Positions 4,068 to 21,988 of a stretch of 64,000 nucleotides of DNA are shown here, one piece after another (position 1 is the first letter of the stretch; each line of letters opens with the position of its first letter). The translations under genes and the position numbers were made by a program. Below the pieces are notes generated by a model, which searched no databases, was not told where the DNA came from, and saw only the letters and a list, made by a program, of their open reading frames with translations. This stretch comes from Streptomyces liangshanensis (lineage in GTDB: Bacteria > Actinomycetota > Actinomycetes > Streptomycetales > Streptomycetaceae). The stretch is from positions 6,765,501 through 6,829,500 of the forward strand of contig NZ_CP050177.1 in assembly GCF_011694815.1 (NCBI RefSeq), written 5' to 3'.

Positions 4068-5399
4068 GTGCTAGGAGAGTATCGGATCCAAGGTCGGCGT
4101 GCGGCGGACATTTCCGCGAGTGTGGAGCGGGCGGTCGGCTCCGGAGAGCTGGGACCGGGCCAACTGCTGCCTCCCATGCGGGAGTTGGCGACGGAGTTGG
4201 GGGTCAATCCGAACACCGTCGCGGCCGCCTACCGCACGCTGCGCGAGCGCGGGGTGATCGAGACGGCGGGACGCAGGGGCAGTCGCGTACGGGAGCGGCC
4301 GGCCAGCACGTCCCGGGGGTCGATCCGAGTGGAGGCGCCCCCCGGCGTACGGGACGTGTCGGCGGGCAATCCCGATCCCGCCCTGCTGCCGAAGCTGGAC
4401 CACGCGCTCGCCGCCGCCGCGCGGCGCCACGCGGAGCGGCCCGGGATGTACGGCGAGGCCGCCGTCGACCCGGAGTTCGCGCGGCTCGCCCGCGCGGCAC
4501 TGGACGCCGACGGGGTGCCCGACGGGCCGGTGGCCGTCATGTCGGGGTCGCTCGACGCGATCGAACGGGTGCTGGCGGCTCACCTCCGGCCCGGGGACGC
4601 CGTCGCCGTGGAGGACCCGAGCTGGGGGAGCCTGCTGGACCTCGTGTCGGCGCTCGGGTTGCGGCCCGTGCCGGTGGGCGTGGACGACGAAGGCCCGCTG
4701 CCCGGTGACCTGGAGCGGGCGCTGCGCGATGGCGTCCGCGCCGTGGTCGTCACCGATCGCGCGCAGAATCCGACGGGCGCGGCGGTGAGCGCGCCCCGCG
4801 CGGCGCGACTGCGGGAGGTGCTCGGCGCCCGCCCCGGGGTGCTGGTGATCGAGGACGACCACGGCCACCACTTCGTGGACCTGCCCCTGCACCCGCTCGC
4901 CGGGGCCACCGACAGCTGGGCGCTGGTGCGGTCCACCGCGAAGGCGTACGGACCGGACCTGCGCCTCGCGGTCCTGACGGGCGACGCCGTGACCGTCGAC
5001 CGGGTGACGGGCCGTCAGCGTCTCGGCCCCGGCTGGGTCAGCCGCCTCCTCCAGCTGGCCGTCGTGGACCTGTGGACCTCGCGCGCGGTGGACGTCGCGG
5101 CGGTGTCCCGCGCCTACGGCGAACTGCGCGACGCGCTCGTACGGGCCCTGGCGGAACGGGGTGTGCGGGCCTACGGACGCAGTGGCATGAACGTGTGGGT
5201 GCCGGTGGCCGACGAGACGAGCGCGGTCGCGGGCCTGCTGCACGCGGGATGGGCGGTCGCGCCGGGGGCGCGCTTCCGGGTCGCGACCCCGGCGGCGGTA
5301 CGGGTCACGGTGTCGGGGCTCACGGTCGGCGACCTCGCGTCGCTCGCCGACGCGCTGGCCGCGGCGGCGGGACCGGCGACCGCGCGCAGCTACGGCTGA
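4068..5399 (+). CDS. MocR/PdxR-type regulator (GntR HTH fused to aminotransferase fold)
   Basis: A 443-residue protein. Residues about 5-75 are a GntR winged helix (LLPPMRELATELGVNPNTVAAAYRTLRERG). Residues about 100-435 are a class I PLP-dependent aminotransferase-like domain, with SLDAIERVLAAHLRPGDAVAVEDPSWGS and the PLP-lysine segment LVRSTAKAYGPDLRLA. Such proteins sense PLP or an amino compound and control vitamin B6 or transporter genes. Start GTG 4068 has no upstream ribosome binding site, so the mRNA may be leaderless. The divergent PNPOx-like gene is the likely target. Confidence 0.9.
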   Translation: MLGEYRIQGRRAADISASVERAVGSGELGPGQLLPPMRELATELGVNPNTVAAAYRTLRERGVIETAGRRGSRVRERPASTSRGSIRVEAPPGVRDVSAGNPDPALLPKLDHALAAAARRHAERPGMYGEAAVDPEFARLARAALDADGVPDGPVAVMSGSLDAIERVLAAHLRPGDAVAVEDPSWGSLLDLVSALGLRPVPVGVDDEGPLPGDLERALRDGVRAVVVTDRAQNPTGAAVSAPRAARLREVLGARPGVLVIEDDHGHHFVDLPLHPLAGATDSWALVRSTAKAYGPDLRLAVLTGDAVTVDRVTGRQRLGPGWVSRLLQLAVVDLWTSRAVDVAAVSRAYGELRDALVRALAERGVRAYGRSGMNVWVPVADETSAVAGLLHAGWAVAPGARFRVATPAAVRVTVSGLTVGDLASLADALAAAAGPATARSYG

Positions 5400-5452
5400 G
5401 CGCCTCGCGAGCAGGACTGACGGTTCGCGGCCAGGACTGACGGTTCGGGCGG

Positions 5453-6505
5453 TTACGGCCGGCTGTTCGCCGACACCGGAGCGGGTACGGGCGGGGGCGT
5501 CGCGGTCAGGTCCGTCCGGTCCGCCCCGGGCGTCCCGCCGTCTTCCGGTCCGCGCTTCCGGGACTTCCGCGGCCTGCTCTGCGTCAGGGCGGCGCCGGCC
5601 AGGATGACCACCGCGCCGACGGGGGTGTTCCAGCTCAGCGGCTCCCCCAGGAGGGTCACCCCGGCGGCCGTGGCGATGACCGGGATGAAGTACGTGACCA
5701 TCGCGCCGATCGTCGGGCCCACCTCGGCGACCACGCCGTACTGGAGCAGGATCGCCAGGCCGGTCCCCAGCGCGCCGAGCACCACCACCGACAGTAGCGG
5801 CCACACCGGGAACGAGGCCGGCATGGTGGTGAACAGCGGTGTCACGACGGCCAGTTGCGCGGTGGCGAGGAGCAACTGCGTGCCGGTGAGCGAGAGATGC
5901 GAGTGGCTGCCGCCCGCCAGCGTGCGGCGTACGTAGATCCAGCCGACCGGGTAGCTCAGCGACGCCAGCAGGGCCATGGCCGTACCGGTGACGTCGAGGC
6001 CGGAGAAGCCCTGCCAGGCGCCGAGGACGGTCAGCACCCCGAGGAATCCGATGCCGACCCCGGCCACGCGGCGGCGGGTGGGCCGGTCCTCGGACAGGGC
6101 CACGAAGGACAGGAGCATGCCCCACAGGGGCGAGGTCGCGTTGCAGATGCCCGCGAGCGTCGAGGGGATCGTCAGCTCGGAGTACGCGAACAGCGAGAAC
6201 GGCAGCGCGTTCAGGAGGAAGGCCGCAACGGCGAGATGGCCCCAGGTGCGCAGCCCCCGGGGGAGGCGCTCGCGCTTCCACACGAGGGCGACCGCGATGA
6301 CCGCCGTACCGAACAGGAGGCGTCCGAAGGTGACTTGGAAGGGCGCGAAGCTGTCGGTGCCCACCTTGATGAACAGGAAGCTGAAGCCCCAGATGAGGGA
6401 GAGCGCCGCGAACCGGACGCGCCAGCCGATGACGCGGCGGGGGGAGCGCGGGCGGGCGGGGGAAGCGGCGGCGGGGGCCGGGCGAGGCGAGGCGGCGGAG
6501 CTCAT
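5453..6505 (-). CDS. EamA-family transporter
   Basis: A 350-residue, ten-helix DMT-family membrane protein. After a Pro/Ala/Arg-rich N-terminus (1-30), the helices start at VRFAALSLIWGFSFLFIKVG, and the second EamA half begins around 180. ATG 6505 follows AAGGTGAGGACC; the upstream ATG at 6562 has no site. The gene is divergent from the LysR regulator at 6580, which by neighbourhood is its probable regulator. Likely an exporter of amino acids or drugs; the substrate is unknown. Confidence 0.88.
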   Translation of the reverse strand: MSSAASPRPAPAAASPARPRSPRRVIGWRVRFAALSLIWGFSFLFIKVGTDSFAPFQVTFGRLLFGTAVIAVALVWKRERLPRGLRTWGHLAVAAFLLNALPFSLFAYSELTIPSTLAGICNATSPLWGMLLSFVALSEDRPTRRRVAGVGIGFLGVLTVLGAWQGFSGLDVTGTAMALLASLSYPVGWIYVRRTLAGGSHSHLSLTGTQLLLATAQLAVVTPLFTTMPASFPVWPLLSVVVLGALGTGLAILLQYGVVAEVGPTIGAMVTYFIPVIATAAGVTLLGEPLSWNTPVGAVVILAGAALTQSRPRKSRKRGPEDGGTPGADRTDLTATPPPVPAPVSANSRP

Positions 6506-10761: not shown

Positions 10762-11790
10762 TCAGGCGAGGGTCGCTTCGAGGGCGGAGTAGGAGCCGGA
10801 CCCGGTGACGGTCCTGCCGAGGGTGAAGCCGGCGTCGGCGAGGAGCCGGCGCCATTCGGTCTCGCTGCGCTGACGACCGCCCAGCATCCCGAGCATGGTG
10901 ATGTCGATCATCTTGGTGGGGTGCGGGGCGTCGCCCTCGGGCACGACCATGTCGATGACGACCAGCCGGGCACCGGCCGGCGCGGCCGCCGAGACGTTGC
11001 CCAGGATCCGTAGCGCGGACGGGTTGTCCCAGTCCTGGAGGACGGCGGACAGGACATAGACGTCCGCACGGGGTACGGCCTCGAAGAAGTCGCCCGGGAC
11101 GATCCGCACCCGCTCGCCGAGTCCCGCGGCCTCGATCAGCGGGCGGGCGGCGGAGACGGTGCTCGGCAGGTCGAAGAGGATGCCCTTGCGTTCCGGATCG
11201 CGGGCGAGCAGTGCCGCCAGCAGCGTGCCGTCCGCCCCGCCGATGTCGGCGACGGTCTCGCCGGCGGGAAGGTCGTAGACGCTCAGCAGATCACCCCGCG
11301 CGTTCTGGGTGAAACCGGCCATCGCCTTGTTCTGCAACTCCGCCAGCTCGGGATTCTCGTCGATCCAGTCGAAGAAGGGCTTGCCGAGGAACAGGCCGGC
11401 GGCGGGCTCGCCGGTCCGCACGGTGTCGAGCAGCCTTCCGAACGGGGCGTAGTGGGTCCGGTGGAAGTAGCGGGCCACGTCACGCAGGGAGTCGGCCGGG
11501 CCGTCGGCGAGCGTGTGGCCGAGATCGGTGAGCTCGACGCTGTCCTCGAAGGTGCGGAACACGTCGTGCTGTGCCAGGAAGCGGATGATCCGCCCCAGGG
11601 CGTCGGCGTCCGCGCCCACCTCCGCCGCGAGGTCGCCGACCTCGCGCGGCCCTTTCAGCAGGGCGGTCGCCACCCCGAGTTCGGCGACGGCGAAGGCGGC
11701 CTGGGACACCTGGAAGCCGGTGAGCAGTTCGTGCATCCGGGCGGCGGGGGGCGGTTCGGTGGCGCGCGGGTTCGTCTTGTTCCTCATCAT
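10762..11790 (-). CDS. SAM-dependent O-methyltransferase
   Basis: A 342-residue methyltransferase of the acetylserotonin/polyketide O-methyltransferase type. An N-terminal dimerisation winged helix (about 12-95) is followed by a Rossmann SAM domain with motif ETVADIGGADGTLLAAL and the acidic GDFFEAVPRADVYVL segment. Close relatives methylate hydroxyl groups of aromatic polyketides and related compounds. ATG 11790 (or 11787) has no ribosome binding site and abuts an inverted repeat, so initiation may be leaderless; the upstream 52 codons of the open frame look non-coding. Confidence 0.88.
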   Translation of the reverse strand: MMRNKTNPRATEPPPAARMHELLTGFQVSQAAFAVAELGVATALLKGPREVGDLAAEVGADADALGRIIRFLAQHDVFRTFEDSVELTDLGHTLADGPADSLRDVARYFHRTHYAPFGRLLDTVRTGEPAAGLFLGKPFFDWIDENPELAELQNKAMAGFTQNARGDLLSVYDLPAGETVADIGGADGTLLAALLARDPERKGILFDLPSTVSAARPLIEAAGLGERVRIVPGDFFEAVPRADVYVLSAVLQDWDNPSALRILGNVSAAAPAGARLVVIDMVVPEGDAPHPTKMIDITMLGMLGGRQRSETEWRRLLADAGFTLGRTVTGSGSYSALEATLA

Positions 11791-11804
11791 ATTATGATCG
11801 TAAT
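11791..11804. promoter_or_regulatory. Inverted repeat abutting the methyltransferase start
   Basis: ATTATGATCGTAAT is a 14-bp near-perfect dyad (12 of 14 positions symmetric) directly before the ATG on the minus strand. It is AT-rich against very GC-rich surroundings, which is typical of a promoter or operator. It could bind the neighbouring TetR protein or contain the -10 element of a leaderless promoter. Confidence 0.45.
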
Positions 11805-11970
11805 GCAATAAGGCCGGATCTGGCCAGCGCCATACAGATCGATGATTAGACGGCTCGGGGCTATCCGCGGCGCGGCCCCGATGGTGACTCAGCGTGCCGT
11901 AAGAAATACATAAGATCGTGGGCGTGAGGGGGAACTTCCGGGGCACACGCTGTTCTGGAGGTTGATAACT

Positions 11971-12141
11971 ATGGTTCCCCTGCTACTCGTTCTTCTGCTC
12001 GCCCTGATTCTTTTCGGTGCGGGCTTCGCACTCAAGATTCTGTGGTGGATCGCCATCATCGTTCTGGTGGTGTGGCTTCTCGGCTTCGTCGTCCGCCCGG
12101 CGGGCGGTGGTGGCAAGCGAGGCCGCTGGTACCGCTGGTAG
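11971..12141 (+). CDS. Small hydrophobic membrane protein (56 aa)
   Basis: A 56-residue protein beginning MVPLLLVLLLALILFGAG. Two hydrophobic stretches (about 2-19 and 23-41) are followed by a basic tail GGGGKRGRWYRW. It has a proper GGAGG site (11957-11961) 9 bp before ATG 11971 and a strong hairpin downstream, so it is very likely expressed alone. Short hydrophobic proteins of this pattern are conserved in streptomycetes; the function is unknown. Confidence 0.8.
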   Translation: MVPLLLVLLLALILFGAGFALKILWWIAIIVLVVWLLGFVVRPAGGGGKRGRWYRW

Positions 12142-12158
12142 ACAGCGTTCCCAGCACG

Positions 12159-12197
12159 CGCGGGTGGGGCCGGACATGGTGTCCGGCCCCACCCGCG
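12159..12197. terminator. Strong hairpin terminator
   Basis: A perfect 17-bp stem (12159-12175 and 12181-12197, arms rich in GGGGCC) with a 5-nt loop, followed by TTT. It lies 17 bp after the stop of the small hydrophobic protein gene. Confidence 0.85.
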
Positions 12198-12385
12198 TTT
12201 CCATGTCCCGGGCAACGGCGGCGACTTGTGAACGCCCGACGGGAAAAGCGTCGAGAAGCTGGGAAGGGACCGGTCCGGGAAACGTCAATTCCGCGAATCG
12301 GGGAAGGTGCACCGTGGTGGCCGGGTGGCCGCCGTGGCGCACAGGGAACCGCGCCTCCAGCACGGCGTGCCCCCGGTCACCTCGC

Positions 12386-13735
12386 TCAGCGCTGACTCCG
12401 CGTGACGACCGGCGCGTCCAGGCGCGCCGCGAAGATGATCGTGTCGTCCTCCTGCTCGGCTCCGAACTCCTCCAGCAGGCTGTCGCACAGCGCCTCGGGG
12501 GCGGACGGACCGTGGAGGGACGCCAGACGCAGCGCGTCCAACCGGTCGGACAGGTCGCTGTCCCGCGTCTCGATGAGCCCGTCGCTGATCATCAGGAGCA
12601 GACTCCCCGGCTTGATGTCGTAGGCGGTCGCGACGGGCTGCGGGAGCCCGATCCCGAGCAGCGGCCCGTGCTCCGTGAGGAAGTCCGCCTCGTCGTCCGG
12701 CGAGACCAGCAACGGAGGCAGGTGGCCCGCGTTGGCGACATGGATCCGGCTGTGGCACGGCTCCACGAGGACCACGCACACCGTGGCGGTCCACCCCCGG
12801 TGATGGAGCCCCAGAAGGTGGTCCAGACGCTCCAGCAGGACGTGCGGGGGATGGGCCTCGGCGGCGTACGCCCGCAGGGCGTGGCGCAGTTCGCCCATGA
12901 TGATCGCGGCCTGGAGGGAGTGGCCGACCACGTCGCCGACCGCGAGCAGGAGCCCCGCCTCGGTGACCACGGCCTCGTAGAAGTCACCGCCGATCTGCTT
13001 CTCCGCCGCCGCGGCCAGATAACGCACCGCGAGCTCCGCGCCGGCCACTTCCGGCAGGTGCTCGGGCAGGAAGGTGCGCTGGAGGGTCAGGGCGAGCTGG
13101 TGCTCCTCGTCGTAGAGGGCGACCACGCCCCGGTTGGTCTCCTCCAGTTCGGCGGTCAGCTCCGTGTAGAGCGCGACCACTCCCTGGTTCGTCTCCACCA
13201 GTTCGGCGTTCAGGCGCGCGAGTTCGTCGCGCTGCGACCGCGACTCCTCCAGGGCGGCCATCAGGTCCGCGGTCTGCGCCCGTAGGTCCTCCAGCGCCCC
13301 GGTGACCGGTGTCTGCGCCCGCAGGGCCGCGCTGATGGCCGTCGCCGCGCCCCGCGCGGGCGCGGACGGCGGAAGGGCGGCACCCAGCTCGATACGCCCG
13401 CCGGGCCCCGTACCGGCCGGCGCGGGCCGGTAGCTGGTGGAGGACAGCAGACGTCCGACCGCGTCGAGGGACTCCGCGCTCGGGACCCGCTCGTCGGGCC
13501 AGACCAGGTCGACCCTGAGCTGCGCGGCCGTCTCGTCCATCAGGAAGGTGGCCGTCATCGCCGTACCGGGCCGGAGCAGGTCGCGGCCCAGTTCGCTCAG
13601 CGCCGCGGCCAGCCGTACCTGATCACGGGGTTCCAGGCCGGCCGCGACGGCGGCCGTCTTGGCCTGGCGGCGCAGGACGAAGACGTCCTGTTCGGAAATG
13701 AGCGAGACGGCCAGCAGCGTGGTGGGCACGGTCAC
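12386..13735 (-). CDS. RsbU-like PP2C (SpoIIE) phosphatase with degenerate kinase-like N-domain
   Basis: A 449-residue protein. Residues about 10-60 (EQDVFVLRRQAKTAAVAAGLEPRDQVRLAAALSELGRDLL) resemble the start of an RsbT/RsbW HATPase, but the glycine-rich ATP lid is not recognisable. Next comes a coiled coil (about 115-175) containing a repeated ETNxGVVALY motif. The C-terminal SpoIIE PP2C domain (about 190-440) has GGDFYEAV, GDVVGHSLQAA, NAGHLPPLLV and SDGLIETRD, with metal-binding aspartates. It would dephosphorylate an anti-anti-sigma protein. GTG 13735 overlaps the upstream stop by 4 bp. It is the last gene of the operon. Confidence 0.88.
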   Translation of the reverse strand: MTVPTTLLAVSLISEQDVFVLRRQAKTAAVAAGLEPRDQVRLAAALSELGRDLLRPGTAMTATFLMDETAAQLRVDLVWPDERVPSAESLDAVGRLLSSTSYRPAPAGTGPGGRIELGAALPPSAPARGAATAISAALRAQTPVTGALEDLRAQTADLMAALEESRSQRDELARLNAELVETNQGVVALYTELTAELEETNRGVVALYDEEHQLALTLQRTFLPEHLPEVAGAELAVRYLAAAAEKQIGGDFYEAVVTEAGLLLAVGDVVGHSLQAAIIMGELRHALRAYAAEAHPPHVLLERLDHLLGLHHRGWTATVCVVLVEPCHSRIHVANAGHLPPLLVSPDDEADFLTEHGPLLGIGLPQPVATAYDIKPGSLLLMISDGLIETRDSDLSDRLDALRLASLHGPSAPEALCDSLLEEFGAEQEDDTIIFAARLDAPVVTRSQR

Positions 13736-14961
13736 CAGAGCTCCTTGGCGATCACCACGCTGGCGTCGTCGCGACGCGTCCCCGCCTGCCGCAGCAATCC
13801 CGTCGCCAGCACACCCGCCCGATGCGAGAACAGGCCGCTGAGGTCCTCGGGAGCCCAGCGCTCCGTGAGTCCGTCGGAATGCATGATCAGGGCTCCGTGA
13901 GCGGGTAGCTGGTGTTCGTACGTGCGGGGCGGGTGGATCTGGTGGCCCACGATGCCCGGGTGCGACAGCAGGTTGCTGCGGCTGGTGGCGGTGACCAAAG
14001 CCGCGGTGATGTTGCCGACACCGCAGAACAGCAGCCGGTTGCCGTCCGGTTCGATCCGCGCGACCGCCACGGCCGCTCCGCGCGTCCCGCGCAGCGCCCG
14101 GTGGATCTCCTGCACGGCCTGTTCCGGCAGCCGGCTCGTACCGGTACGGAACGCCTGGACCGCGGCCTGGCCGGCCAGGGACGCCAACGGGCCGTGTCCC
14201 AGACCGTCGCAGAGCATGACCATGATGCCGGGGCCCGGGCCCGCGACGGCCGCCCGCACGGGAACCGAACGAGCCGACCTGCCGGCGGCCGGGGAGCGCA
14301 GGGGTGTCCCGGGGGACGAGGTCCGGGCGAGGGTGAGCGCCGCCCAGTCGGTGACGGCCGGGGCCGAAGGGGCACCGTCCGGCGCGGCCGCCGGACGGGC
14401 GGCCGGCGCGGCCCGCTCCGTACCGCTGTCCGCCCGGTGGGGGTCGAGCCGGGTGGCCCAGGCGTCGCCGCAGACCCGTTCGCCGCTGATGGGGCGGGTG
14501 ACGCCGCTCACGGCCGGTTCCCGGTCGCCCACGTCGCGGGGGAGGGGGCGCGGCCAGAAGCGGGCGAGCTGGACGGTCCCGTGACCGGGCCGGGAATGGA
14601 TGTCGAAGACGTCCGCGAGCCGCCGTACGGCTCCGAGCCCGATGCCCAGGGTCCCGGACGTGGACGAACCGTCCAGCAGGGACGCGGCCACGTCCGCCAT
14701 CCCGGGACCGTGGTCGACCACCACCACCTCGACGCCCGCGACCTCCCGGGTGCGTATCGCGCGCAGGAGGAGCGACGCGTCCACGGAGTGGTTCGTCATG
14801 TTGGTCACCAGCTCCGCCACCGCCAGGACCAGCTCGGCCGTACGGTGCTCGCTCAGCCCGGTCCTGCGGCCCAGCGCCGCGGCCGCGCCGCGCGCGGCAC
14901 CGGGCTGGTCGCGGAACCACGCCACGTCCTCGCAGTCCACCAGGAGCGGGCCGGCGTTCAC
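13732..14961 (-). CDS. RsbT-like kinase fused to RsbX-like PP2C phosphatase
   Basis: About 409 residues carrying two opposing activities. The N-terminal HATPase domain (about 5-135) has VLAVAELVTNMTNHS, DHGPGMAD and GTLGIGLGAVRRLADVF. A Pro/Ala/Ser-rich linker spans about 140-225. The C-terminal domain (about 230-405) is a small RsbX/SpoIIE-type phosphatase with MVMLCDGLGHGPLA, GVGNITAALV and SDGLTERW. By analogy with Bacillus, RsbT phosphorylates RsbR/RsbS and RsbX removes those phosphates, so one chain could set and reset the switch. GTG 14961 gives the same 4-bp overlap as its neighbours; GTG 14970 is an alternative. Confidence 0.88.
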   Translation of the reverse strand: MNAGPLLVDCEDVAWFRDQPGAARGAAAALGRRTGLSEHRTAELVLAVAELVTNMTNHSVDASLLLRAIRTREVAGVEVVVVDHGPGMADVAASLLDGSSTSGTLGIGLGAVRRLADVFDIHSRPGHGTVQLARFWPRPLPRDVGDREPAVSGVTRPISGERVCGDAWATRLDPHRADSGTERAAPAARPAAAPDGAPSAPAVTDWAALTLARTSSPGTPLRSPAAGRSARSVPVRAAVAGPGPGIMVMLCDGLGHGPLASLAGQAAVQAFRTGTSRLPEQAVQEIHRALRGTRGAAVAVARIEPDGNRLLFCGVGNITAALVTATSRSNLLSHPGIVGHQIHPPRTYEHQLPAHGALIMHSDGLTERWAPEDLSGLFSHRAGVLATGLLRQAGTRRDDASVVIAKELW

Positions 14962-15356
14962 CGGGCCCACTTGGTGATCGTGACCGTCGTCCCCTGCCCC
15001 GGGGCGCTCTCGAGGACGAAGTCGTCCACCAGCCGCTTGGAGCCGGACAGGCCGAGGCCCATGCCGTTGCCGGAGGTCCAGCCGTCCGTCAGGGCCAGAC
15101 CGACGTCCTCGATCCCGGGTCCCTGGTCCGCGAACACCACGCGTACTCCGCGCCGGCCCTGCCGGGCCACCAGGGTGGCCGTCATGGTGCCGCCCCCTCC
15201 GTAGATCAAGGTGTTACGGGCCAGTTCGCTCGCGGCCGTCACCAGCTTCGTCTGCTCGACCAGCGAGAGGCGGCATTCCTGCGCCAGCCCGCGGACGGCC
15301 TGACGGGCCATCACCACGCCGTCGTTGGCGGTGATCGACAGCACGTGCTCGGTCAC
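14958..15356 (-). CDS. rsbT: RsbT-like anti-sigma/switch serine kinase
   Basis: A 132-residue single-domain HATPase. The N-box is in SELARNTLIYGGGGT, the G1 box in DQGPGIEDVG, and the glycine-rich lid in SGNGMGLGLSGSKRLVDDF, ending in TTVTITKW. Length and motifs match RsbT, which phosphorylates STAS partners in the stressosome and then activates RsbU. GTG 15356 overlaps the stop of the RsbS-like gene (GTGA), implying coupled translation and matched stoichiometry. Confidence 0.9.
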   Translation of the reverse strand: MTEHVLSITANDGVVMARQAVRGLAQECRLSLVEQTKLVTAASELARNTLIYGGGGTMTATLVARQGRRGVRVVFADQGPGIEDVGLALTDGWTSGNGMGLGLSGSKRLVDDFVLESAPGQGTTVTITKWAR

Positions 15357-15835
15357 CGGAGGATCTGGTCGGGGTCGGCCACCCCGTCGTCGCTCTCGGC
15401 GGCGTCCCGGCCGCTTCCCCCGCCCGAGCCGTACCCGCCGTCGGCGTCGGACTCTCCCGCGACGCCGGGCAGCGACCTGGCACGGGAGCGTTCCAGCGCG
15501 CGCAGGCCCTTGTCCAGGGTCAGTGCCGTGGTGACACCTCCCAGCGACAGACCCAGTTCGACCAGCGTGATCGCCACGGCCGGGCGCATGCCCACCACGA
15601 CGGTCTCCGCGTCCAGCATGCGCGAGATGGAGGCGATGGTGGACAGCATCCGGCCGACGAAGGAGTCGACGATCTCCACCGCGGTGATGTCGATCACCAC
15701 GCCGTGCGCCCCGGTCTCCACGACCTTCGCCGCGAGATCGTCCTGCAACAGCATCACGGCCTGGTCGTCCAGGTCGGTCTGGATGGACACCAGCAGGACC
15801 TGGCCGATGCGCAGCACCGGCACCCGCTCGCTCAT
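15353..15835 (-). CDS. rsbS: RsbS-like STAS-domain protein
   Basis: A 160-residue protein. The STAS domain (about 3-115) includes VPVLRIGQVLLVSIQTDLDD and the phospho-acceptor loop ITAVEIVDSFVGRML, where serine is the likely target. Residues about 120-160 are a Gly/Ser/Asp-rich tail not found in compact RsbS proteins. ATG 15835 overlaps the upstream RsbR stop by 4 bp. With RsbR it would form the stressosome scaffold. Confidence 0.9.
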   Translation of the reverse strand: MSERVPVLRIGQVLLVSIQTDLDDQAVMLLQDDLAAKVVETGAHGVVIDITAVEIVDSFVGRMLSTIASISRMLDAETVVVGMRPAVAITLVELGLSLGGVTTALTLDKGLRALERSRARSLPGVAGESDADGGYGSGGGSGRDAAESDDGVADPDQILR

Positions 15836-16698
15836 CGGCCCAGCCCGGTCTTCCCACCGGCCGTCAGGGTCGTCCCCGAGCGGCGCAGCGCGTGCCGCAG
15901 GGCGTCGGCGAGGGTGGCCTTGGTGGTGATGTCGCCGAAGTCGATGCCCAGGGCCACGATGGTCTGCGCGATCTGCGGCCGGATACCGGAGATCGTGCAC
16001 TCGGCGCCCATCAGCCGGGCGGCGACCACGGTCTTCAGCAGGTGCTGGGCGACCTCGGTGTCCACGGCCGGGACACCTGTGATGTCGATGATGGCCTGCT
16101 CGGACCCGGTGTCGATGAGGGCCTGGAGCATCTTCTCCATCACGACCATCGTGCGCGCCGAGTCCAGGGTGCCCACCAGCGGAACGCCGATCACCCCGTC
16201 CCAGAGCTTGACCACGGGCGTCGACAGCTCCAGCAGCTGTTCGGCCTGGGCGCTGATCAGCTCCTCGCGCGCCTGCGTGTAGGTCTCGATGGTGAACAGG
16301 CCGAGACTGTCCAGGAGGCGGGACAGCTGGAGGAACGCCCGCAGGTCGTCGCCGTCACCACCGGCGAGCGCCGGCTCCAGTACGGACTTCAGCGCGAAGA
16401 CGCTGACGGCGGTCTCGGACGGGGTGAACCCCTGCCGTGCCCTGTTGCGCGACAGCTCGGTGAGCAGCGCGCGCACCTCGCCGAACGCCTCGTCGCCCGC
16501 GTCCAGGCTGCCCTTGCCGAGCGCGGAGAGCAGCGCCGCGTACAGCTCGCGCAGCTCGTGTTCCACCTCGGTGCGGCTGACCCGCCCGCCGAGGGAGCCG
16601 GAGACTTCGGCGACCCAGCCGGCGGCGAGGTTGTCGTCACCACCGGACAGCAGGGTCACCAGACGCCCCGTAACGTTTTCACCAGCCACAACGCACAT
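15832..16698 (-). CDS. rsbR: RsbR-like stressosome scaffold/sensor
   Basis: A 288-residue protein with a helical N-terminal sensor-like domain (about 10-160, variable in the family) and a C-terminal STAS domain (about 165-275). The STAS domain has LSTPVVKLWDGVIGVPLVGTLD, the signature at the domain start, and the acceptor segment IIDITGVPAVDTEVAQHLL, where T/D residues replace or flank the usual threonine. It is the first gene of the operon. ATG 16698 is too close to AAGG; GTG 16689 would have better spacing and may be the real start. Confidence 0.88.
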   Translation of the reverse strand: MCVVAGENVTGRLVTLLSGGDDNLAAGWVAEVSGSLGGRVSRTEVEHELRELYAALLSALGKGSLDAGDEAFGEVRALLTELSRNRARQGFTPSETAVSVFALKSVLEPALAGGDGDDLRAFLQLSRLLDSLGLFTIETYTQAREELISAQAEQLLELSTPVVKLWDGVIGVPLVGTLDSARTMVVMEKMLQALIDTGSEQAIIDITGVPAVDTEVAQHLLKTVVAARLMGAECTISGIRPQIAQTIVALGIDFGDITTKATLADALRHALRRSGTTLTAGGKTGLGR

Positions 16699-17708: not shown

Positions 17709-18083
17709 TCAGAGACCCGGGCCGACGTAGCCGGGGTCCGGGTCCTGCCGGGGGGTCCACCACTCCAGGAGCCCCCACATCCCGAGCGCGAGCGCGGCCA
17801 CGCCCGCGAGCAGGGCGAGCCAGGGGCGCCCGGTCCGGCGTACGGTCAGCCCCCAGGCCAGGAGCGGAAGCAGCGCGCCGCCCAGCGCGATCAGCGGGAG
17901 ATCGACGTAGATCACGCTCAGATCCCGGGCATGGCCCTCGAACCCGCCGTCGATGCTGAACGCCGCCCGCGGCGCCCACACCGACGGCGCGACCGCCGCG
18001 CCGAGGCCGGCGAGAAGGCAACCGGCGCCGCCGGTGGCGTTCGACAGGGTGCCTCTGGTCCCGTCCACCGGATCCTTGTCCAT
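17709..18083 (-). CDS. Small hypothetical membrane protein
   Basis: 124 residues with three to four hydrophobic segments (about 14-38, 58-80, 87-105), ending in GYVGPGL. No family is recognised and the ribosome binding site before ATG 18083 is weak. It sits alone between the anchored hypothetical protein and the ABC uptake operon. Confidence 0.6.
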   Translation of the reverse strand: MDKDPVDGTRGTLSNATGGAGCLLAGLGAAVAPSVWAPRAAFSIDGGFEGHARDLSVIYVDLPLIALGGALLPLLAWGLTVRRTGRPWLALLAGVAALALGMWGLLEWWTPRQDPDPGYVGPGL

Positions 18084-18179
18084 GCCAGTGACGGACGCCG
18101 GTGGTGGGCGGTCGGTTCCGCCGGGGCGGGCAGTTCCGTCCGGTCGGTTCCGCCGGAGCGGCCGCTCACCTGGCGCAGG

Positions 18180-19004
18180 TCATCCTCGGCCCGTACCGTC
18201 CGCGACGGTCGGCAACCCCGCCCGGTCCAGCCGGAGTTCGGGGCGTCCGTCCGGGCCGGTCCGCAGAGTGGACCGGACGCCGAAGACACGTTCCATGTGC
18301 GGTGGCGTCAGGACCTCCTCCGGTGTCCCGGAGGCGACGACGCGCCCCGCGTGCAGCAGCACCAGGTGGTCGCAGTGGCGGGCGGCCAGGTCCAGGTCGT
18401 GCAGCGCGGCGACCACGGTGGCCGGGATCCGCGCCAGGAACTCCAACAGGTCGAGCCGGTGGGTGATGTCGAGGTGGTTGGTGGGTTCGTCGAGCAGCAG
18501 CGCGGCGGGCTCCTGCGCGAGAGCGCGGGCGATGTTCACCCGCTGGCGCTCTCCCCCGGACAGCGTCGACCACACCCGCTCCGCGAGCGGCTCCACCCCC
18601 AGGTGTGCCATGGCCTCCCCGGCCGCCCGCAGGTCGTGCCGCGACGGCGCGGCCCGCCCCCGGCGGTGCGGCAGCCGGCCGAGGAGCACGACGTCCATGA
18701 CGGTCATCTCGGCCTCGGACGCCACCTCCTGGGCCGTGACCGCGACACGCCGTGCGATGTCGCGCCGGCGCAGGTCCGCCAAGTCGGCGCCGTCCAGCAG
18801 GACATGGCCGCCCGAGGGACCGTACAGCCCGGCCAGCAGCCGCAACAGGGTCGATTTGCCGGAGCCGTTCGGCCCGATCAGCCCGGTGAAGCCGCCCTCG
18901 GGGAACGCCGCCGTGACCTCGTCGACGAGCTTCCTCGCCGACTTCCCGCTCCCGGTGCTCCGCGACAGGTTCCGCGCGGCGACGCGCGCCGCCGGCCCGC
19001 TCAC
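18180..19004 (-). CDS. Iron/cofactor-type ABC transporter ATP-binding protein (FecE-like)
   Basis: A 274-residue ABC ATPase with Walker A GPNGSGKST (about 42-50), Q-loop VTAQEVASE, signature LSGGERQR, Walker B LLLDEPTNHLD and the H-loop histidine in AALHDLDLA. It energises import through the permease encoded just upstream. GTG 19004 overlaps the permease stop by 4 bp. Homologous four-gene sets are annotated either as siderophore uptake or as putative F420-0 transporters in TIGRFAM; sequence alone does not decide. Confidence 0.9.
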   Translation of the reverse strand: MSGPAARVAARNLSRSTGSGKSARKLVDEVTAAFPEGGFTGLIGPNGSGKSTLLRLLAGLYGPSGGHVLLDGADLADLRRRDIARRVAVTAQEVASEAEMTVMDVVLLGRLPHRRGRAAPSRHDLRAAGEAMAHLGVEPLAERVWSTLSGGERQRVNIARALAQEPAALLLDEPTNHLDITHRLDLLEFLARIPATVVAALHDLDLAARHCDHLVLLHAGRVVASGTPEEVLTPPHMERVFGVRSTLRTGPDGRPELRLDRAGLPTVADGTGRG

Positions 19005-20131
19005 GGAGCGGCCACCCGTCTGCGCAGGAGGACCGCGAACGCCGGCACGCCGAGCAGGGCCGTCAGGACACCGACAGGCATCTCCTGCGGGCTGAAGAGG
19101 GTACGGGCCGCCGTGTCCGCCCAGACGAGGAACGCCGCCCCGAGCAGCGCGCCCACCGGGAGCAGCACGCGGTGGCGGGCTCCCACGAGGAAGCGTGCCG
19201 CGTGCGGGACCAGCAGGCCGACGAAGCCGATGGCGCCGCCCGCCGAGACGAGGGCGCCCGCCAGCACCGCCGTACCGGTGTAGAGGAGACGTTCGGTACG
19301 GCGCACCTCGACGCCGAGCGCGGAGGCGGCCTCGCGCCCGAAGGTGAAGGCGTCGAGTGTGTCCGCGCGCGCCAGGCACAGCAGGAGCACGGCGGCCGCC
19401 GCGCCCGCGCACACCGTCACACTCGTCCAGGTGGCGGGCGCGAGGGAGCCCATGAGCCAGAACGTCACCGAGCGGGTCTGTTCCGCGTCGCCCGCCCACA
19501 GGACGGTCAGGCTCGTCAGCGCGGAGAAGAGCTGCGAGACCATCACGCCCGCGAGGACCACCTTGGTCGTACCGCCCAGGGAGCGGCCGAGCAGGACCAG
19601 CACGCAGCCGAACGCGGTCAGCGCGCCGGCGAACGCCCCGGTGGGCAGGGCCAGGGAGCCCGAACCGGCCCCCAGGACCAGCACCGCCACGGCGCCGGTC
19701 GACGCGCCCGACGAGACCCCCAACAGGTAGGGATCCGCCAGGGGGTTGCGGGTGAGGGCCTGCAACACCGTTCCGCACACGGTCAGTCCGGCGCCGACCA
19801 GAGCGGCCAGCAGCACCCGGGGCAGCCGCAGGTCCCACACGATGCTGTCGCGCAGCGGCGACACGGTGTCCGCCGGTCCCGCGCCGAGGTGGCCCGCGAC
19901 GACACGCAGTACGTCGTACGGCGGGAGGTCGGCGCTGCCGATGCTCACGGCGGCGAGGACGGAGAGCGGGAGCAGGACACATCCGGCGGCCAGGACGACC
20001 GTGGGGCGCGCCGAGCGGCGGCGGGATCCGTCCGTCACGCGGCCCGGCGACTCCCCGGACCGGGGTGTCCGGGCCGGCCCGGTCCCCCGTGCCTCCGGGG
20101 GAGTGCCGGCCTCCACCGTCACGCCGCTCAC
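19001..20131 (-). CDS. FecCD-family ABC transporter permease
   Basis: A 376-residue permease of the BtuC/FecCD type with a disordered N-terminus (1-40) and about ten hydrophobic segments. The family signatures are visible: GAGLTVCGTVLQALTRNPLADPYLLGVSSGAS and PHAARFLVGARHR. It forms the import channel for a siderophore, cobalamin-like or cofactor substrate. GTG 20131 overlaps the methyltransferase stop by 4 bp; upstream codons of the open frame are Arg-rich and not coding. Confidence 0.9.
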   Translation of the reverse strand: MSGVTVEAGTPPEARGTGPARTPRSGESPGRVTDGSRRRSARPTVVLAAGCVLLPLSVLAAVSIGSADLPPYDVLRVVAGHLGAGPADTVSPLRDSIVWDLRLPRVLLAALVGAGLTVCGTVLQALTRNPLADPYLLGVSSGASTGAVAVLVLGAGSGSLALPTGAFAGALTAFGCVLVLLGRSLGGTTKVVLAGVMVSQLFSALTSLTVLWAGDAEQTRSVTFWLMGSLAPATWTSVTVCAGAAAAVLLLCLARADTLDAFTFGREAASALGVEVRRTERLLYTGTAVLAGALVSAGGAIGFVGLLVPHAARFLVGARHRVLLPVGALLGAAFLVWADTAARTLFSPQEMPVGVLTALLGVPAFAVLLRRRVAAP

Positions 20132-20889
20132 CGCCGGGCGAGGACGACGTAGTCGTCGAGGTACTGCCACACCGTTCCGACCTCGGTGAAACCGGCGGTG
20201 CGCAGCGCGGACAGGTGGAAGTGGAGCGGGGCGAGCGGCTGGGGCGGCCGGTCGGCGAACCGCCGTTCCCGTTCGGCCGCCAGCGGCGCGGCCCCGGGCC
20301 GGGCGGCGGCCCGCGTGAACCACGCGTCCCAGGTGTCGGCGCCCTGGCCGAAGGCCGCGGCCTGGCACTCCGCGTCGTGCCGCGCGGAGACGGCCCGCAG
20401 GGTGGGGGCGTCCTCGCCGAAGCGCAGGTGGTCCGCGTTGAGGAGGAGCCCGCCGGGCGGCAGCAGCCCCGCCAGGTCGGTGTAGACGCGCAGCAGGTCC
20501 CCGGGCGACAGCCAGTGCAGCGCCGTCGACGTCACCACCGCGTCGAAGGCCCGCCCGCCGAGCGCCGAGGTCCAGTCGGGGCGCAGGAGGTCGGCCTCCA
20601 GGGTCGTGGCGCGCCCGCCGTGCTCCGCGAGGACCTCGCCGGCCAGGTGCAGGAGCAGCGGGTCGTAGTCCACCGCGGTGACGGTGGCGCGCGGGAAGGC
20701 GCCGAGCAGGCGGTCGGCCAGCGAGCCGGGCCCACAGGCCAGGTCCAGGGCGCTGAACTCCTCGGGGAGGTGGAGCCGCAGGACGTCCAGCATGCTGGTG
20801 AAGCGCTGGTCCCGGTGGGCGATGTAGGCGGCCTGCTGGTCGTCCCAGCGCGCGAGCAGGTCGCGCGGGCCGGTGGTGAGGTCGGTCAT
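20128..20889 (-). CDS. Class I SAM-dependent methyltransferase inside the uptake operon
   Basis: A 253-residue methyltransferase of the trans-aconitate/ubiquinone type. SAM motif I is EFSALDLACGPGSLADRLL (about 45-63), the acidic motif is VTAVDYDPLLL, and FDAVVTSTALHWLSPGDLL is the post-motif typical of the family. ATG 20889 overlaps the binding-protein stop and its own stop overlaps the permease start, so it is translated as part of the transporter operon. It may modify the imported ligand or a related metabolite, which is inference. Confidence 0.87.
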   Translation of the reverse strand: MTDLTTGPRDLLARWDDQQAAYIAHRDQRFTSMLDVLRLHLPEEFSALDLACGPGSLADRLLGAFPRATVTAVDYDPLLLHLAGEVLAEHGGRATTLEADLLRPDWTSALGGRAFDAVVTSTALHWLSPGDLLRVYTDLAGLLPPGGLLLNADHLRFGEDAPTLRAVSARHDAECQAAAFGQGADTWDAWFTRAAARPGAAPLAAERERRFADRPPQPLAPLHFHLSALRTAGFTEVGTVWQYLDDYVVLARR

Positions 20890-21908
20890 CGCAGGCTCCC
20901 CAGTCCCTTGCTGACCGCCTCGACCGCGCTGACGCTGCGGAGTGAGGGGTCCACGGCGGATCCGGGCACCACGACGAACCGGTTGTGGCGTACGGCGTCG
21001 AGCTTCGACGCGACGGGATCGGCGCGCAGGAAGCGCTTCTTGGCCTCGGCGCTGTCCCCGTCGCCGCCCCGGGTGAGGTCGGCGAGGACGATGACGTCCG
21101 GGTTCCGGTCGGCGATCTTCTCCCAGCCGCCGGCGAACCACTTCTGGTTCACGTCGTCGAACGTGTTCTTCTCGCCGAGGAGTTGGCTGATCGTGGAGGG
21201 CAGTCCGCCCTTGCCGGCGACGTAGGGCGTACGGGTGCCGGAGTAGTACCACATGATGTCCCGGCCGGGACCGCCCGGAGCGGCCGCCACAGCGCGGTCG
21301 AGCCGGGCGCGCAGGCCGTCCACGACCTTCGTACCGCGGTCCTTCACTCCGAAGACGGTCGCGATGTCGTTGATCTCGCCGAAGATCGCGTCGAAGGTGA
21401 CGTCCTTGCGGGTCAGGCCCTTCTGCTCGCAGTCGTGCGAGGAGAGATACGCGGGCACCCCGGCCGAGGCCCAGCCGGCGCGCTCGCCCGCCGCCTCGGG
21501 GGCGAACGCCGAGGACAGGGTCGAGTAGAGGAAGTCGGGTTCCTTCGCGAGGACCGCCTCGTGGCCGGGGTACTGCTTCGCGAGGACGGGCACCTTCGCG
21601 TAGGCGTCGGCGAGTTCGGGGAGTACGGGGTCCGTCTGGTAGCTCGTGCCGACCATCCGGTCCGCCAGCCCGAGCGCCAGCATGATCTCCGTGGCGTTCT
21701 GTTCCAGGGCGACGGCCCGCCGGGGCGGGCGCGTCACGTTCAGGTCGAGGCCGCAGCTCTTGAGCCGTACCGCGGCGGTCTTCCCGCCGGTGTCCTTGGA
21801 GTCTCCGGCCGCGGCCGGCCGGTCGTCGTTGCCGCAGGCGACCAGTCCCGCCAGCAGGGCGCCGGTGACCGCCGCGCTCGCGGCGGTCTTAATGGTTATG
21901 GGTCTCAT
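20886..21908 (-). CDS. ABC transporter substrate-binding lipoprotein (FecB-like)
   Basis: A 340-residue lipoprotein. The signal peptide (MRPITIKTAASAAVTGALLA) ends in lipobox LVAC (about 23-26). The two-lobed periplasmic-binding fold follows, with NATEIMLALGLADRMVGTSY at the start and the lobe-linking helix region ALLAKEPDFLY-like around 115-130. It captures the substrate for the FecCD permease. ATG 21908 fits the signal peptide; no clear Shine-Dalgarno sequence precedes it. The PadR dyad lies about 50 bp upstream, on the divergent side. Confidence 0.9.
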   Translation of the reverse strand: MRPITIKTAASAAVTGALLAGLVACGNDDRPAAAGDSKDTGGKTAAVRLKSCGLDLNVTRPPRRAVALEQNATEIMLALGLADRMVGTSYQTDPVLPELADAYAKVPVLAKQYPGHEAVLAKEPDFLYSTLSSAFAPEAAGERAGWASAGVPAYLSSHDCEQKGLTRKDVTFDAIFGEINDIATVFGVKDRGTKVVDGLRARLDRAVAAAPGGPGRDIMWYYSGTRTPYVAGKGGLPSTISQLLGEKNTFDDVNQKWFAGGWEKIADRNPDVIVLADLTRGGDGDSAEAKKRFLRADPVASKLDAVRHNRFVVVPGSAVDPSLRSVSAVEAVSKGLGSLR

Positions 21909-21958
21909 GTTCAGTAACGTACCAGCGCTTTTCCTTTCTCCGCACCGAGGGGCTCCAC

Positions 21959-21988
21959 TATTCACTCAGTACATGTACGTGGTGAATA
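21959..21988. promoter_or_regulatory. Large concentric dyad, probable PadR operator
   Basis: Arms TATTCAC (21959-21965) and GTGAATA (21982-21988) are exact inverted repeats. They share one centre with an inner perfect palindrome, GTACATGTAC (21969-21978). The 30-bp element begins 51 bp before the uptake-operon start and ends 9 bp before the PadR start, so it could control both. PadR proteins commonly bind TACATGTA-like cores. Confidence 0.7.

Follow-up and report, generated by a model that had tools for sequence, protein, structure and literature searches.

The operon at positions 12386-16698 of a 64,000-nucleotide stretch of Streptomyces liangshanensis DNA (contig NZ_CP050177.1, positions 6,765,501 to 6,829,500; hereafter the window) consists of five consecutive minus-strand open reading frames (ORFs), in the order R, S, T, TX and U (6777886-6782198 on the contig). 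We propose that it is a stressosome module with its own reset phosphatase (TX) and a direct output phosphatase (U), in which the histidine-aspartate (His-Asp) relay of related operons has been short-circuited; we put the probability of this reading at about 60 percent. It is the fifth gene, not the kinase-phosphatase fusion TX, that departs from the common layout, and its short form is the rarer one.

As the preliminary description of this DNA had reported, all four gene junctions overlap by 4 bp with the chosen starts (15832-15835, 15353-15356, 14958-14961 and 13732-13735). The five reading frames are open and the overlaps intact; a chance arrangement is excluded because the gene order is kept in other genomes. 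Pfam assigns RsbRD_N and STAS to R, STAS to S, HATPase_c and HATPase_c_2 to T, HATPase_c_2 and SpoIIE to TX, and SpoIIE to U. The features are as follows.

15832..16698, minus strand: R, RsbR-type co-antagonist, RsbRD_N sensor plus STAS (ATG start, 288 aa; candidate phosphosites T177 and T214)
15353..15835, minus strand: S, RsbS-type STAS scaffold (ATG start, 160 aa; candidate phosphosite S58)
14958..15356, minus strand: T, free-standing RsbT-type switch kinase (GTG start, 132 aa; N, G1 and G2 boxes intact)
13732..14961, minus strand: TX, RsbT-type kinase domain plus RsbX-type phosphatase, the reset protein (GTG start, 409 aa; starting from a GTG at 14970 instead would lengthen it by 3 aa)
14542..14961, minus strand: TX residues 1-140, RsbT-type GHKL domain with N, G1 and G2 boxes intact (from hhalign, tree, Foldseek and residues)
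13732..14520, minus strand: TX residues 148-409, RsbX-type PPM phosphatase (residues 177-229 are a length-variable, low-confidence insert)
12386..13735, minus strand: U, short-form output phosphatase of front, long helix and PPM (GTG start, 449 aa; SpoIIE 142.9 bits)
13361..13735, minus strand: U residues 1-125, predicted pseudokinase front of degenerate RsbT type (Asp in place of the N-box Asn; no recognisable G1 or G2 box)
13073..13297, minus strand: U residues 147-221, one long helix, probable coiled linker, presumably dimeric (from the secondary structure of the model)
12416..13063, minus strand: U residues 225-440, PPM phosphatase of RsbU/RssB type

Gene five with and without a histidine kinase relay

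In the common form of the operon, the front is part of a histidine kinase, which is followed by a gene joining a receiver to a PPM phosphatase; in a short clade, front and PPM make up one chain without kinase core or receiver. Our comparison of named genomes covers 79 loci (from 80 matches retained out of 429 confirmed, a sample that favours close relatives): 56 have the long form, 11 the short form, two a front only, at contig ends, and ten no gene five. BLAST searches with a single kinase-core and a single receiver query placed the front in the histidine kinase ORF and the PPM in the receiver ORF of the next gene at 56/56 long-form loci. Pfam matches in long forms include HisKA and HATPase_c (loci L046 and L065) as well as Response_reg and SpoIIE (L032, L041, L071 and L065). 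In L065 the front match extends up to residue 271, directly followed by the kinase-core match from 272 onwards. The histidine kinase of this locus (11195-13129) also bears a receiver of its own, besides the receiver on the next gene.

The short form occurs in the window, in 11 named-genome loci and on the plasmid L086. It aligns over its length in all of these except one named-genome locus, L013, where gene five is split in two frames (10/11 aligned). Neither a kinase-core nor a receiver match was obtained at E 0.001 in 12 short-form loci or the 64-kb window, and the window operon has no pair of the RsbK-RsbY kind, i.e. no HisKA/HATPase_c kinase with a REC-PPM protein. Among the matches listed, one of 80 other genomes of the same genus (G224) possesses a near-full-length short U. 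Identity to the window protein across short and long forms is 39-54 percent in the front and 43-60 percent in the PPM.

A FastTree phylogeny of concatenated R, S, T and TX, from which L016, L017, L019, L023 and L078 were omitted, unites the 13 short rows with four that have no gene five in a clade of 17 (local support 1.0). The long-form locus L065 is the sister of this clade (1.0), and both belong to a larger group of 45 rows, 27 of them long forms (0.995). Because the short forms are one clade nested among long forms, the His-Asp relay seems to have disappeared only once, and the simplest reading is one event that removed histidine kinase and receiver. The four clade members without a recognisable gene five (L010, L012, L014 and L062) possess R-S-T-TX, and their ORFs after TX have no related Pfam match; in L014 and L062, weak kinase-core and receiver matches (27-37 percent) lie at a distance of a few kb.

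The PPM domain of the window protein U is of the RsbU type. Its N-terminus is not the four-helix RsbT-binding domain of RsbU: the front is predicted to be alpha/beta and matches the T family. Although Pfam finds nothing in it, profile comparison with hhalign gives a probability of 97.9 (E 4.2e-13) against the T family and 83.9 against the TX kinase domain, which bears out the degenerate kinase-like front of the preliminary description. The order of strands and helices in the front equals that of the TX model. The U model has a predicted local distance difference test score (pLDDT) of 82.2 and a predicted template modelling score (pTM) of 0.53; Foldseek and VIA-align rows for U span the phosphatase and part of the helix, and the identity of the front rests on the profile comparison and the predicted secondary structure. 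Coiled linkers that join N-terminal regulators to PPM or histidine kinase domains are described as a signal route, with an exchange of fronts between both proposed, in the available part of PMC12143880.

The kinase-phosphatase fusion and three RsbT-type domains

TX combines the two enzyme types in its 409 residues. Its kinase domain matches the T family with an hhalign probability of 99.8, and Foldseek pairs this half with SpoIIAB (1l0o, E 9.8e-7). The phosphatase half is nearest to RsbX and MtX in both sequence and fold, with the metal-binding Asp present; RsbX is a single-domain protein, whereas TX is fused to a GHKL domain. The model reaches a mean pLDDT of 77.2 and a pTM of 0.79, with low confidence in the insert. 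In an alignment of the window with 85 loci (86 rows, from Actinomycetota, Deinococcota and Pseudomonadota), the ATP-site residues E50, N54, D83, G85, G87, G106, G108 and G110 are kept in 85 rows, the exception being L078, a broken frame with gaps. The metal-binding residues D252, D363, D398 and D399 are kept in 86/86 rows, D166 and N317 in 85/86 each. We take these to be the catalytic residues of GHKL and PPM enzymes. Neither ATPase nor phosphatase residues are missing from the fusion, and because its ATP site is intact, TX may be a dual enzyme, both kinase and phosphatase, as SypE of Vibrio fischeri is.

The preliminary description considered it unusual that one chain with both activities stands beside a free RsbT; this did not hold, as the arrangement is routine. 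TX has at least 3173 homologues at E 0.001 (among 7999 candidates scored), and R-S-T precedes it in 75/79 named-genome loci. A plasmid collection yielded TX matches at 97 places in 95 records, 57 of them from Phaeobacter and 17 from Deinococcus. Six of these places were opened, five of them non-actinobacterial (Deinococcus radiodurans, Phaeobacter inhibens, Sphingomonas aliaeris, Caballeronia and Variovorax). All five have R-S-T-TX, and in all five TX has both Pfam domains, HATPase_c_2 and SpoIIE (ORFs were taken stop to stop, some with 5' extensions). The layout spans Actinomycetota, Deinococcota and Pseudomonadota, and these counts rule out a rare fusion. In a phylum sample, 58 of 149 genomes show any match, mostly weak matches to the kinase half; some have separate kinase and phosphatase frames (G047, G079, G125 and G173). 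By our reading of the match rows, 8 of 18 other genomes of the same genus have the two halves of TX next to each other. The fused TX is a variant of the rsbRSTX module, of which we found neither a description nor an experimental study in the literature searched, the 2005 and 2017 reviews of the module lying outside that scope; that it was already characterised is thus not supported.

The operon holds three RsbT-type domains: T, the kinase half of TX, and the front of U. We placed them in a domain tree of picked rows (20 T, 18 TX, 8 fronts and 29 other HATPase_c_2 places of the genome, out of 71 matches). T and fronts join at 100/96, and 17/18 TX kinase domains branch together at 99/97. The 29 other domains of the genome are split off together (96/49, found in 97 percent of bootstrap trees), with 28/29 set apart at 98/78. 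The domain types part in this tree below the split between actinomycete and plasmid-borne relatives, so T, TX and front types look old; alternatively, whole operons may have been transferred. The N-box Asn is kept in 82/82 T and 85/86 TX rows, and in 3/74 fronts, two of these three being from Deinococcus and Sphingomonas. Because of this scarcity, the fronts of nearly all actinomycete rows in the sample are predicted to be pseudokinases. At roughly even odds, one RsbT-type fold is used thrice here: as free switch kinase, as address tag of the reset enzyme, and as output receiver. The third copy would be a pseudokinase in actinomycetes, and one clade of Streptomycetaceae would have deleted histidine kinase and receiver to arrive at a direct stressosome-to-phosphatase switch.

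Predicted signal path, rival explanations and output

The first three genes carry the features of an RsbRST module: a STAS-bearing RsbR with conserved Thr, a single-STAS RsbS with conserved Ser, and an intact GHKL kinase. R scores 84.5 bits for RsbRD_N and 47.1 bits for STAS; its STAS part matches stressosome RsbR 7o0i (E 1.9e-33), with T177 kept in 80/81 and T214 in 81/81 aligned rows. S matches RsbS 6jhk in PDB (E 2.6e-32), and position 58 is Ser in 80/81 rows and Thr in one. T (HATPase_c 46.0 bits, HATPase_c_2 38.4 bits) keeps N-box Glu and Asn, G1 Asp and both Gly in 82/82 rows; its sole PDB matches at E 0.01 are SpoIIAB, and we name it RsbT because of the gene order beside R and S. Domains and residues thus uphold the gene identities first proposed, from RsbR, RsbS and RsbT through the RsbT-RsbX-type fusion to the U-type PP2C phosphatase. 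By analogy, we infer that R, S and T are a stressosome-type module, with shell assembly and stress-dependent release of T predicted.

Judging from homology, R and S would form a STAS shell. As in Bacillus, T would be held on this shell and, upon stress, phosphorylate R (T177 and T214) and S (S58) and be released. Most likely, the RsbT-type half of TX docks on the STAS surfaces that T uses, and it would deliver the RsbX-type phosphatase to the phosphosites, which would reset the shell. With its intact ATP site, TX probably has kinase activity too, and may be a two-way governor of the shell. The front of U would be a non-catalytic receiver of the stressosome signal and pass it through the long coiled linker to the PPM, whose probable substrate is an RsbV-type antagonist encoded elsewhere. 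Such a path would agree with the linker mechanism described for RsbU (PMC12143880).

Several observations weigh against this proposal. RsbU of Bacillus is bound via a different, four-helix N-terminal domain (PMC12143880, in the part available), so the input of U must differ from that of RsbU; the partner of the front may be T, TX or R/S. TX and U can occur without the full gene set: the ten loci without gene five comprise four solo TX genes and six loci with R-S-T-TX. Around the solo genes (L016 10001-11173, L017 10001-11179, L019 10001-11152, L023 10001-11038), the DNA fetched has no match to R, S or T; the targets of these TX proteins may be other STAS proteins. In the locus tree, one of the deeper nodes is supported at only 0.35. 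In the domain tree, T is grouped at 95/77 and TX as a whole at only 49/20, the Phaeobacter row falling outside, and the fronts do not form one group (two changes are needed). Genome-wide family searches found no RsbV-, RsbW- or sigma-type gene adjoining the operon. Finally, in P0120, a relative from the database, the ATP motifs are lost and the phosphatase half is retained; 29 of the best 120 of 3173 relatives were aligned with the window protein.

P0120 also speaks for the rival that survives best, which we regard as a possible but clearly less probable account: TX would be an RsbX with a kinase-derived docking domain that binds shell and nucleotide and phosphorylates nothing, T being the sole kinase. 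The kinship of the phosphatase half with MtX and RsbX fits this, and a docking role would account for the coupling. A pure docking domain should not, however, need all eight ATP-site residues, which TX keeps in all but one row from three phyla; the front of U illustrates how lost constraint on the ATP site looks.

It is unlikely that the kinase domain of TX is instead an RsbW-like anti-sigma switch acting on a SigB-type factor or an RsbV-like protein, with the phosphatase half reversing its action, as in OsaC and SypE. It has matches to two NCBIfam models, RsbA_anti_sig and spIIAB, though neither reaches the curated cut-off; the N-terminal kinase domain of OsaC binds SigB (PMC10117811), and in SypE one chain phosphorylates and dephosphorylates a STAS protein (PMC10120452), according to the available parts of these papers. 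Yet the TX kinase domains group with T and the fronts, away from the 29 other HATPase_c_2 domains sampled, TX is linked to R-S-T in nearly all loci, and no sigma factor is adjacent. The domain tree likewise disfavours TX as a copy of an ordinary anti-sigma factor, an origin we deem improbable.

We give still less credit to the possibility that the short gene five is the older state and that the long forms came about when histidine kinase and receiver were inserted. Front and PPM are common to both forms, and either direction is formally possible; but the short forms are one nested clade, the two-gene layout reaches Micromonospora, Rugosimonospora and Actinocorallia, and the front is joined to a histidine kinase in Deinococcus and Sphingomonas (with no PPM gene seen within the fetched stretch). 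That the operon is decaying or non-functional is very improbable: 4/17 clade members lack gene five beside TX and L013 has it in two frames, but the window has five open frames, intact overlaps and its catalytic residues.

As first described, no sigma-B-like or anti-sigma gene is adjacent to the operon in the window. In genome-wide searches for STAS, HATPase_c_2 and SigB/F/G families, no full sigB operon with rsbV, rsbW and sigB was found beside it, the nearest members lying tens to more than 100 kb away: the nearest SigB/F/G-type factor above the curated cut-off is about 112 kb off (G000:C1:6665280-6665951), and the nearest HATPase_c_2 and STAS places outside the operon are at 6897127 and 6835575, respectively. 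The genome contains seven SigB/F/G-type factors and 55 HATPase_c_2 places (T and TX included) above the cut-offs, and 15 STAS places (R and S included), and because candidates are so many, the output is not nameable from sequence. The first candidate is a putative RsbV-RsbW-sigma set in which the SigB/F/G-type gene 4934353 is adjoined by STAS place 4935561 and HATPase_c_2 place 4936295 (G000:C1 ~4934353-4936630). For SigB-type promoters, we assumed the consensus G..T, 14-17 bases, GGGTAC/T; it has eight matches in the window, three of them within 5-25 kb, of which one is inside S and none upstream of R. In 13 short-form sources (window and 12 loci), the search for conserved output neighbours yielded, besides the five genes and shadow frames, one frame cluster in 8/13 (L086 10686-11135, L004, L006, L007, L009, L011, L013 and L015), which is absent beside the window operon. 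Its L086 member has a Pfam HATPase_c_2 match and its L004 member none; the cluster may mix real and shadow frames. The literature on SCO7323-7327 of S. coelicolor was followed as well, and this cluster could not be shown to be the same operon.

Related systems and neighbouring frames

The path from stressosome to output is largely uncharted outside the Bacillales. An operon family that has members with a His-Asp relay and members lacking it makes it possible to ask which of the steps transmits the signal, and also if a phosphatase can be gated by a degenerate RsbT-type domain. If the threefold use of the fold and the deletion hold true, the short clade would be a natural deletion experiment, and front and PPM domains would be exchangeable via coiled linkers. 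The fusion is common in databases, with no tested function in the literature searched, and its likely substrate pair is encoded next door, which makes it an easy target.

The following comparisons refer to the available parts of the papers cited. The rsbRSTUVW-sigB-rsbX operon of B. subtilis (PMC9237108, PMC7522486) likewise encodes RsbR, RsbS and RsbT together with a reset phosphatase of RsbX type and a PPM phosphatase of RsbU type; the window operon differs in that it has no rsbV, rsbW or sigB, its RsbX part is fused to an RsbT-type domain, and U has a pseudokinase-like front in place of the four-helix N-terminal domain of RsbU. The rsbRSTX module is widely conserved, and that of Gram-negative and other bacteria has the same R-S-T, directly followed by an RsbX-type gene and then a variable output gene, sometimes a histidine kinase (PMC9237108). 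In clusters with a globin-sensor RsbR, RsbX is a single-domain phosphatase (PMC9237108), whereas TX of the window and the five plasmids is of HATPase_c_2 plus SpoIIE type; the RsbR of the Phaeobacter locus L083 is of RsbRD_N type, so that the sets differ. The TX gene of L083 lies at 4482-5492.

Mycobacterial rsbR, rsbS, rsbT, rsbX and rsbUW form another actinobacterial stressosome with a reset phosphatase and a fused U-type protein (PMC8115616); the fusion is named U-W, and its likeness to the window is one of description, not of sequence. The long-form relatives share with RsbK-RsbY of B. cereus a histidine kinase and a receiver-PPM protein (PMC7522486), but their relay stands beside a stressosome, and it is absent in the window. 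SypE of Vibrio fischeri resembles TX in having serine kinase and PP2C phosphatase in one chain and a STAS substrate; unlike TX, it has a receiver at its centre, and its target is SypA rather than a stressosome (PMC10120452). OsaC of Streptomyces also combines an N-terminal kinase domain (PMC10117811) with a PPM phosphatase (PMC12143880), but has PAS/GAF domains and binds SigB (PMC10117811, PMC12143880), compared by description alone.

Two neighbouring regions may be mentioned. Frames at about 17900-21965 on the minus strand resemble, by reading of the ORFs alone, an iron-siderophore ABC transporter cassette and a substrate-binding lipoprotein. Next to the end of U, a small hydrophobic protein of 56-59 aa is encoded on the plus strand (11962-12141); similar frames occur in 10 of 85 loci searched, in L086 directly upstream of R.

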